DNA of 34,938 nt, from contig JAAYAP010000014.1 in the NCBI GenBank assembly GCA_012719315.1, forward strand, positions 1 to 34,938, given 5' to 3'. Shown piece by piece: positions 4,010 to 33,995 of the stretch; the first letter of the stretch is position 1; each line of letters opens with the position of its first letter. The notes below the pieces were generated by a model that saw only the letters and a program-made list of their open reading frames with translations, was not told the origin of the DNA and made no database searches. The position numbers were made by a program, and so were the translations under genes. The stretch is from Methanobacteriota archaeon. Its GTDB lineage: Archaea; Thermoplasmatota; Thermoplasmata; Methanomassiliicoccales; Methanomethylophilaceae.

Positions 4010-5308
4010 TCACTTCACCGGTTCCCATTTGGCCAACTCGTTGACCTTGGACAATGTGGATCCCCTGCGGATCTCCTCGCGGGTGCGGTTCTCCCGCTCG
4101 TTGACATCGATCGAGCGGTTGGCGACCTCGACGGCATGCTCGGCGGGCACCACGACGAGGCCGTTCTCGTCGCCGATGATCCAATCCCCGGTACGTACCC
4201 TCTGACCGCCGACGGCGATCTCCATGCCGATGCCGCCGTAGCCTTTGGCTTCGCCGGCGCAGGGCACGACGCTCCTGGAGAAGGCGGGGAAGCCGATCCT
4301 GCGGATATCGTCGATGTCCCTGATCGCGCCGTCGATGACGACCCCTCTGACGCCCATGACGATCGCGGAGTTGGTCGCCAGCTCCCCCCAGACGGCCATG
4401 GGGGCGCCGCCGACATCGATCACGATGACATCCCCGGGCATGGCGCGGTCGATGGCCTCGACCGGTTTGGCCCAGTCGCCGTTGCTGGTCTGGACGGTCA
4501 GCGCCCTGCCGACCATCCTGGCGCCGTCCTTGATATGAGGCTGCAGGCCCATGACGATCCCCGTCTTGTGCTGTGCGTCGGATATGTTGCAGGTGGAGCA
4601 TTTCGAGAAGGCTTCGAACAGCTCCTCCTCCCCGTATTTCTTGGCGATCTCCGACCTGACCTCGACACCGGCCATGGCCTTCTTGACGGTGGCCGCCGCC
4701 GATCTGATGTCGGGGGCCTTGATGATGCCGCCGCCGACGATCACGGCGGAGGCGCCGGCCTCGACGTATTCGCGGGCGGTGTCCGCGGTTATGCCTCCGG
4801 CCACCGCCACGGGCAGGCCGGTCTCGGAGACCATCCTCCTCAAGACGTCGATCGGGGGCTCCTCCCCCTTCATCTGGGAATCGATGCCCATGTGCAGGCA
4901 GATGTACCTCGCGCCCAGCTTCTCGACCTCCTTGGCCCTGGCCACGCGGTCGGGCACGCGTATCATGTCGACCATCACCGATGCGCCGTATTTCCTGCCG
5001 ACGGAGACGGCCTCCTCGATGGTGGCATCGTCGGCGAGACCGAGGACGGTGACGATATCGGCGCCGGCCTTGGCCATGATCTCCACCTCCAACCCGCCCA
5101 CGTCCATGGCTTTGACGTCGGCGACGATGGTGGCTTCGGGGAATTCCCTGCGCATGGCGCGGACCGCGTCCGCGCCTTCGCTCTTGACCAGAGGGGTGCC
5201 GACCTCCACCCAGTCGGCGCCGCCGTCAACGGCTTCCTTGGCGATGACGACGGCCCGGTTCAGCTGTATCAGGTCCAGCGCCACTTGCAGGACAGGCTTC
5301 ATGCGCAT
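4010..5308 (-). CDS. Bifunctional 3-hexulose-6-phosphate synthase / RraA-like (demethylmenaquinone methyltransferase-fold) fusion
   Basis: N-half HPS (LDLIQLNRAVVIAKEAVDGGADWVEVGTPLVKSEG, ADVKAMDVGG); C-half RraA-like (DVGGAPMAVWGELATNSAIVMGVRGVVIDGAIRD). Confidence 0.88.
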   Translation of the reverse strand: MRMKPVLQVALDLIQLNRAVVIAKEAVDGGADWVEVGTPLVKSEGADAVRAMRREFPEATIVADVKAMDVGGLEVEIMAKAGADIVTVLGLADDATIEEAVSVGRKYGASVMVDMIRVPDRVARAKEVEKLGARYICLHMGIDSQMKGEEPPIDVLRRMVSETGLPVAVAGGITADTAREYVEAGASAVIVGGGIIKAPDIRSAAATVKKAMAGVEVRSEIAKKYGEEELFEAFSKCSTCNISDAQHKTGIVMGLQPHIKDGARMVGRALTVQTSNGDWAKPVEAIDRAMPGDVIVIDVGGAPMAVWGELATNSAIVMGVRGVVIDGAIRDIDDIRRIGFPAFSRSVVPCAGEAKGYGGIGMEIAVGGQRVRTGDWIIGDENGLVVVPAEHAVEVANRSIDVNERENRTREEIRRGSTLSKVNELAKWEPVK

Positions 5309-5321
5309 GCATCATGATGGC

Positions 5322-5333
5322 GATTATATACAT
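5322..5333 (-). promoter_or_regulatory. TATA box for HPS-RraA gene (GTATATAATC on minus strand)
   Basis: AT-rich box about 20 nt upstream of the ATG at 5308. Confidence 0.5.
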
Positions 5334-5346
5334 CTATTGAGAAGTC

Positions 5347-5407
5347 CGCCGCTCAGCTCGCCCGTCTATCATCACGTTCAGCTCGATAAACGATCATCAT
5401 CGCGGCA
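5347..5407 (-). ncRNA. C/D box sRNA (2'-O-methylation guide)
   Basis: Minus strand: GCCGC-G-ATGATGA(C)-TCGTTTATCGAG-CTGA(D')-AC-GTGATGA(C')-TAGACGGGCGAG-CTGA(D)-GCGGC. Both guides exactly 12 nt; 5-bp terminal stem. Confidence 0.88.
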
Positions 5408-5426
5408 TCCTGCCAATCACGGCACG

Positions 5427-5437
5427 GGTTAATACGT
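5427..5437 (-). promoter_or_regulatory. Box A promoter for the C/D box sRNA (ACGTATTAAC on minus strand)
   Basis: TATA-like element centred about 25 nt upstream of the predicted sRNA 5' end. Confidence 0.55.
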
Positions 5438-5515
5438 TTTGGCAATGCGGGGGCGTCTGACGGCCGCGACGGCGGGATCCGGGCAGGCTGCGGACCCCGT
5501 CGTCGCGGATACGCA

Positions 5516-6136
5516 TCAGGCCGTCTACGGGCAGAGGGACCGGGACGGCTCCGCCTCCTCGACCGCCGTCGCCCCGTTCCCGTCCAGACGCACCAGCGAC
5601 ACGATCGTCGGCCCCGTCTCCCCGCGGCGCAGACCCGTCCCGCGGTCGTTGCGCGACACGGCCTCCGTCCCGCGTCCGACCGGCCGACGTCGGCCGATCA
5701 GCACGTTGCGCACGCCCGTGTCCGGATCCGGCACGCATCTGACGGATGCGGAGGCCGCATCCGACGGCAGCATCTGCATGACCAGGGGCCCGAACTCGTC
5801 CTCCGTCCGGATCATGACGACCTCTGTCGCCGACGGACCCGATACGAACACCTCCTGTTGCCGCATGATGCTGCCGGTGAAGACGAGTCCCTCGGCAGGG
5901 TCGTTCTCCCCGGCCACGATGTACACGGGGCAGATGTCCGCCGCGCAGGCGAGGAAAGCATCGAAGGCGTCGACGGATCCCCCGTCCGGCTCGGAGGAGC
6001 CGTAGACATCCCCCGTGATGACGATGCCGTCGGCGCGTTCGCTCAAAGCGATGTCGCAGATCCCCTAGTGCGTGAACGCCGGCGATTCCGCGACGGGCGC
6101 TCCGATGCGCAGGTCCGACACATGGACCAATCTCAC
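5516..6136 (-). CDS. Divergent calcineurin-like metallophosphoesterase (SbcD/Mre11-like N-terminus) with in-frame TAG at codon 24; Pyl-containing gene or pseudogene
   Basis: VRLVHVSDLRIGAP...FTH[TAG]GICDIALSERADGIVITGDVY...VYIVAGENDP...; TAG at 6067-6065 and second TAG at 5527-5525 followed by ACG GCC TGA. Confidence 0.65.
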
Positions 6137-6558: not shown

Positions 6559-7035
6559 ATGTCCGATAAACCCGCGGAGAGGCTGAGAGTGCTGTTTGTG
6601 GATCAGAAGAACGACTCGGTGTCGCAGATCGCCGAGCACTTCACCAGGCAGATGTACGGGGACCTGTACGAGGTCTACAGTGCGGGTCCGGAGCATGACA
6701 TCGTGGATTGCGACCTGATCATCGCGATGTACCGGTCGGGCGAGGACATCAGACGGCATGTCTCCAAGGACTTCAAGAACCTGGAGCTCCTCCGCGAGGA
6801 CGAGGAGTACGACTTCGTCGTCTACCTCGCCGGCGGCACCTTCGAAGCGTGGGCGCCGAAGACCCCGTGGCAGGGGAAGCAGATCCTCGCCGACATGGGC
6901 TCGATACGGGATTACGAGTTCACCGACGAGGCCGAGCTGTTCGACGCCTACGACGAACTGGTGGCCAAGATCAGGAAGTGGGTCGTCGGGAACATGGGCG
7001 ATCCCGATCGCCTCAAGGCGCTAGTGTGCGCATGA
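6559..7035 (+). CDS. LMW protein tyrosine phosphatase / ArsC-fold pseudoenzyme
   Basis: VLFVDQKNDSVSQIAEHF...YSAGPEH matches the LMW-PTP N-terminus but the CxxxxxR P-loop is replaced by DQKNDSVS. Confidence 0.7.
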   Translation: MSDKPAERLRVLFVDQKNDSVSQIAEHFTRQMYGDLYEVYSAGPEHDIVDCDLIIAMYRSGEDIRRHVSKDFKNLELLREDEEYDFVVYLAGGTFEAWAPKTPWQGKQILADMGSIRDYEFTDEAELFDAYDELVAKIRKWVVGNMGDPDRLKALVCA

Positions 7036-33918: not shown

Positions 33919-33995
33919 TGGTGGGCCCAGCCGGATTTGAACCAGCGACCACCCGGTTATGAGCCGGGCGCTCTACCTGTCTAAGCTATGAGCCC
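33919..33995 (-). tRNA. tRNA-Met elongator or tRNA-Ile2 (anticodon CAT), CCA encoded
   Basis: Cloverleaf: GGGCTCA/TGGGCCC acceptor, loop CTCATAA, T-loop TTCAAAT; not the initiator anticodon stem. Confidence 0.93.

Follow-up and report, generated by a model that had tools for sequence, protein, structure and literature searches.

An archaeal contig carries on its minus strand a previously uncatalogued sRNA gene, borne by gut-dwelling methanogens, which we read as a monocistronic archaeal C/D box sRNA gene with a D guide directed at C1402 of 16S rRNA and a lineage-specific D' guide; from sequence comparison we give this reading as a whole a probability of about 0.9. The window, meaning the whole stretch of 34,938 nt that was analysed (contig JAAYAP010000014.1), belongs to a metagenome-assembled genome of the Methanomethylophilaceae. 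The initial annotation had called a C/D box sRNA at this place, and that call is backed by conserved boxes, a 12-nt D guide, a covarying terminal stem, a promoter, pairing with helix 44 of 16S rRNA and a fibrillarin gene in the genome. The gene adds an uncatalogued RNA family that is open to study in gut methanogens, whether cultured or enriched; the predicted target of its guide is methylated in all three domains, by different means.

Read from 5406 to 5348, the minus strand of the window is GCCGC-G-ATGATGA-TCGTTTATCGAG-CTGA-AC-GTGATGA-TAGACGGGCGAG-CTGA-GCGGC, identical base for base to the string originally reported. The features of the locus are the following:

5348 to 5406, minus strand: C/D box sRNA of about 59 nt, its 5-bp terminal stem included (sequence, homologues, stem covariation)
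5402 to 5406, minus strand: 5' arm of the terminal stem, GCCGC, partner of 5348 to 5352, covarying in relatives
5394 to 5400, minus strand: box C, AUGAUGA (RUGAUGA in 97 of 98 loci, ATGACGA in one)
5382 to 5393, minus strand: D' guide UCGUUUAUCGAG, 12 nt, lineage-variable
5378 to 5381, minus strand: box D', CUGA (CUGU, CUGC or CCGA in some relatives)
5369 to 5375, minus strand: box C', GUGAUGA
5357 to 5368, minus strand: D guide UAGACGGGCGAG, with nt 3 to 10 complementary to CGCCCGUC of 16S helix 44
5353 to 5356, minus strand: box D, CUGA
5348 to 5352, minus strand: 3' arm of the terminal stem, GCGGC, covarying with the 5' arm
5428 to 5440, minus strand: archaeal promoter, BRE-like AAAAC plus TATA-like TATTAA
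5323 to 5330, minus strand: TATA-like TATATAAT of hps, some 20 nt upstream of its probable start codon (ATG, 5302)
4010 to 5302, minus strand: hps, bifunctional hexulose-6-phosphate synthase / RraA-like protein, conserved downstream neighbour
6559 to 7035, plus strand: arsC-like / LMWPc-related gene, conserved divergent upstream neighbour

The consensus boxes (RUGAUGA and CUGA), the 5-bp stem and the short D'-C' spacer of 2 nt are all present as first described. Both guides are 12 nt long in the window, also as claimed; across relatives this length holds for the D guide but not for the D' guide. The interval proposed for the element, 5347 to 5437, does contain the sRNA, while its right limit takes in the promoter and the RNA alone is about 59 nt. 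When the stem is left out, a relaxed four-box pattern matches once in the window, against one match in total over 200 dinucleotide-shuffled windows. Two ORFs overlapping the element (5397 to 5738, minus strand; 4551 to 5432, plus strand) are mechanical, support for either having not been found. Pairing between the D' and D guides in the fold of the window RNA (z -2.8) was likewise set aside, since it lacks conservation: over 70 loci the mean z is -0.17.

With a cut-off of E≤1, a 101-nt BLAST query matched 140 of 151 relatives, the weakest matches being due to chance, and full-length strong matches occur throughout the genera of Methanomethylophilaceae, nearly all of which carry a homologue. 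We parsed 98 non-redundant loci for boxes, guides and stem, a set in which retrieval by BLAST favours conserved copies, and the D guide was 12 nt long in all 98. The initial annotation had named loss of the boxes or of the 12-nt spacing beside conserved flanking genes as evidence against the gene, and for the D guide this spacing is intact in every locus. The terminal stem takes 19 distinct forms over 127 loci, including GCCGC/GCGGC, GCCAC/GTGGC, GCTGC/GCAGT, TGCGC/GCGCA, CTCTT/AAGAG and CCCGC/GCGGG. Its pairs are standard in 99.4% of cases, compared with 87.9% when partners are shuffled, and at least four of the five base pairs covary.

Pattern scans demanding GAYGGGCGA, which divergent D guides would escape, matched 158 of 390 Thermoplasmatota genomes, nearly always with one copy each, and the reversed control pattern gave zero in all rows listed. 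Some large families of the phylum sample had no match to the pattern. Among 84,980 species genomes 99 loci were found, almost all Thermoplasmatota by title, and most of the named homologues were Methanomethylophilaceae or Methanomassiliicoccales; a single Bradyrhizobium locus is evidently a chance match. By these comparisons the gene is unusually strongly conserved over a whole archaeal phylum, the RNA type itself being well known. There were 24 relatives with no or weak sRNA match, 13 of which have hps. Within the family hps lies at a contig end in most such relatives, which are therefore uninformative on sRNA loss. In only one genome of the family (G077, 65% complete) is the sRNA missing although over 1 kb of sequence precedes hps, a probable case of loss or rearrangement. 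In that genome (L307, contig C30) a promoter-like stretch, TTTTATCC...CGATTG, persists upstream of hps, and an unrelated ORF occupies the place of the sRNA.

In the D guide, nt 2 to 7, 9 and 10 are invariant over the 98 loci and nt 8 is C or U. Nucleotides 3 to 10, GAYGGGCG, form 8 bp with CGCCCGUC at the top of helix 44, whereas nt 1, 2 and 11 are mismatched. The sole change, C to U, stands opposite a G, so that a wobble pair is retained. The genome of the window (0.98 Mb, 84% complete) holds no 16S or 23S gene, and the rRNAs of related genomes were therefore used for the target search. The helix 44 site was the best SSU match of the D guide in nine of nine genomes tested, and 17 genomes have this site with the same sequence. 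Taken in a single genome, an 8-bp match of this guide is not significant against shuffled guides; the weight of the pairing comes from the fact that the invariant nucleotides are the paired ones and that the tolerated C to U change keeps the pairing. The guide nucleotide five positions upstream of box D, which designates the modified residue under the N+5 rule, is paired, and it faces a position that we take to be C1402 (E. coli numbering), counting from the universal 1392 primer site. The most likely target of the D guide for 2'-O-methylation is thus, as predicted from pairing, C1402 of the decoding centre. As a side observation, the 16S and 23S rRNA genes of two related genomes, G001 and G002, are unlinked (L034, L040, L047, L049), an arrangement described for Thermoplasmata.

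According to this reading, a TBP/TFB promoter would direct transcription from the G that opens the terminal stem, or from close to it, and the RNA would fold into a C/D kink-turn, which the 5-bp stem closes, and an internal C'/D' motif. The folded RNA would bind L7Ae, Nop5 and fibrillarin, its D guide would pair with the top of helix 44, and fibrillarin would then methylate the 2'-OH of C1402, near the P site.

The D' guide is a different matter. In Methanomethylophilaceae it is a drifting, UCGUUUUCGAG-like stretch of 11 to 14 nt, sometimes with an altered box D'. In two sister families (f2 and f5) a D' guide of UAAACCCAGCU or similar pairs almost perfectly, over 10 to 11 bp, with AGCUGGGUUUA of 23S rRNA, the N+5 nucleotide of this pairing corresponding to G2581 in the peptidyl-transferase centre. 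A comparison of rRNA pairings yielded no target common to the whole of Methanomethylophilaceae, and a search of G002, a complete genome of the same genus as the window, for perfect D' guide complements yielded no convincing mRNA. The 23S site CUCRAAAAG was rejected as a family target, as it does not covary with the guides. In Methanomethylophilaceae the D' guide is probably lineage-specific, drifting or orphan; in archaea both the drift of guides and the existence of orphan ones are documented (PMC7994747). In two loci of Ca. Methanoplasma sp. Co333_bin25 (L101 and L225) a run of T stands in place of the D' guide and D' box, with C, C', D guide, D and stem intact; either the assembly is at fault here or the D' half has been lost. 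At the level of the phylum, some loci (L342 to L349) have long variants of the D' region, for example ACGCACTTGAGCGGACTGCTGTTTCAG, with the D' box displaced or absent and the D guide still GATGGGCGAA.

It could be argued that the RNA, although a genuine C/D sRNA, acts in this family mainly on a tRNA, an mRNA or 23S rRNA through its D' guide, with 16S rRNA as a secondary target. A common family form, UCGUUUUCGAG, pairs over 9 nt with the anticodon arm of tRNA-Ser(CGA) of G002, and in the genus of the window 10 nt of the D' guide can pair with H68 of 23S rRNA. However, neither pairing holds across genera. The tRNA match was seen with one guide variant only, and G002, whose tRNAs were searched, has a guide other than UCGUUUUCGAG. 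The H68 pairing is not significant, since 36 of 300 shuffled guides score as high. Given also that the D' guide drifts in length and sequence while the D guide is fixed, we consider a main target outside 16S rRNA very unlikely.

The sRNA had further been credited with its own promoter, and a TATA-like element about 25 nt upstream of the 5' end was indeed found, ACGTATTAAC at 5437 to 5428, centred about 26 nt before the stem. When 73 loci, nearly all from Methanomethylophilaceae, were aligned on box C, the BRE-like AAA and TATA signature proved to be conserved, with an AAA or A-rich triplet at -40 to -38, a T/A-rich hexamer at -34 to -29 and an A/T dinucleotide at -16/-15. Counted from a start at the opening G of the stem (-6 from box C), these elements would lie at about -33, -26 and -10, where the archaeal BRE, TATA and proximal elements are usually situated. 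From this conserved spacing we infer a start at or near that G. A sigma-70 and terminator scan, which is ill suited to archaea, returned nothing. A conserved promoter of its own sets the sRNA apart from most archaeal C/D genes, a TATA-like motif having been found upstream of only ~20% of them (PMC7994747).

Downstream, hps lies on the same strand and starts within ~170 nt of box C' in ~36 of the 80 loci read. Because hps has its own TATATAAT, the simplest reading is that the sRNA and hps are two separate tandem transcripts, that of hps being probably leaderless, with a start near the ATG at 5302. The short distance, ~60 to 170 nt in many loci, nevertheless invites the suggestion that the element acts in cis, as a kink-turn of the 5' hps mRNA leader through which L7Ae regulates hps, and is not a free guide; for archaea, one published report proposes translational regulation mediated by L7Ae (PMC5539422). 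Several observations speak against this. The TATA-like box of hps lies between the element and the ATG, 0.3 to 3.9 kb separate the two in several genomes, and f5 and f6 genomes have hps without the element nearby, f6 having the sRNA at another place. In addition, the D guide, which is irrelevant to a kink-turn, is the most conserved part of the element. A leader function is therefore highly improbable. That the element is a chance box-like sequence or a decayed pseudogene, as might be supposed from the shortness of the boxes and from the three-box chance matches that occur in single genomes, is contradicted by conservation, covariation, promoter and synteny, and we dismiss it.

Upstream, the arsC-like gene is divergently placed in many related loci. 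Between it and the sRNA the window has a short SbcD-like (metallophosphoesterase) ORF (5525 to 6046, minus strand), which was not at this place in 29 related loci searched.

For the guide RNA proposed here, sRNP proteins are encoded at hand: fibrillarin in the window's own genome (E 2e-76), and, in G002, Nop5 (Pfam, E 1.6e-55) and an L7Ae-like ORF recognised by sequence only. A whole-genome scan of G002 for boxes, spacing and stem scored this sRNA at 14.0 and one other candidate at 11.4, the best score in four shuffled genomes being 8.8. These two candidates above background suggest a very small C/D repertoire in G002, a number that is provisional because the scan is uncalibrated on a genome with known C/D RNAs. 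The mesophile M. maripaludis has 7 C/D sRNAs (PMC4644070). The RNA-seq-defined set of N. equitans numbers 26. The second candidate, on the minus strand of G002 contig C1 at ~696055 (L406), reads ATGAAGA-TAACTTTCGG-CTGA-TTT-ATGATGA-TCCCTATGAGTA-CTGA and has a strong terminal stem; a clear rRNA target was not found for it.

Rfam matches at the locus are almost only to C/D families and all fall below gathering: sR1 (RF01152) at 33.8 bits against a threshold of 45, snoPyro_CD (RF00095) at 31.6 against 45 and sR2 (RF01139) at 29.6 against 42. The boxes of these models align end to end with the window sRNA, but the guide sequences do not correspond, and membership in sR1 or sR2 was rejected on score and on the unrelated guides. 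Thirteen related loci likewise gave no C/D match at the Rfam gathering score. Since the locus and these 13 fall below gathering, the gene lies outside the coverage of Rfam 15. In its C/D'/C'/D boxes, 12-nt guide and terminal stem the RNA resembles the C/D box sRNAs of Sulfolobus, Pyrococcus and Methanopyrus (PMC4644070, PMC7994747), and it shares with archaeal dual-guide sRNAs a length of ~59 nt and, as predicted, N+5 targeting of rRNA. It differs in that the D guide is kept over a phylum and the D' guide is not, whereas archaeal guides usually turn over fast.

C/D guides for the C1402-equivalent nucleotide include human U43/SNORD43 (18S Cm1703) and yeast snR70 (Cm1639). To these may be likened, by target, the eukaryotic snoRNA AtU43 of Arabidopsis (18S Cm1645) and, compared by target alone, the Pyrococcus abyssi guide for 16S Cm1369 (PMC11542601). 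Equivalents of C1402 are listed as 2'-O-methylated in E. coli (Cm1402), yeast (Cm1639), human (Cm1703), plants (Arabidopsis, Cm1645) and P. abyssi (Cm1369) (PMC11542601). In bacteria RsmI and RsmH modify the same nucleotide (m4Cm1402), 2'-O-methylation included, but as stand-alone protein enzymes that use no guide RNA (PMC5053481). Among the titles listed in the exact-pattern scan of species genomes there were no Thermococci.

One may speculate, at somewhat less than even odds, that the C/D sRNP machinery of host-associated Thermoplasmatota methanogens has been reduced to about one guide RNA, kept for the ancient C1402 mark while its second guide drifts, the gene being phylum-wide and vertically inherited, contrary to the usual fast turnover of guides. 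If the small repertoire is real, these archaea would offer a natural minimal system for assessing the value of one decoding-centre 2'-O-methyl group, a system that would also bear on why guides are normally lost or replaced.

Elsewhere in the window (33921 to 33995, plus strand), the Rfam Plastid-ycf2 5'UTR model matches antisense to a tRNA gene, at 40.4 bits and below gathering, which is probably an artefact of a tRNA-like model.
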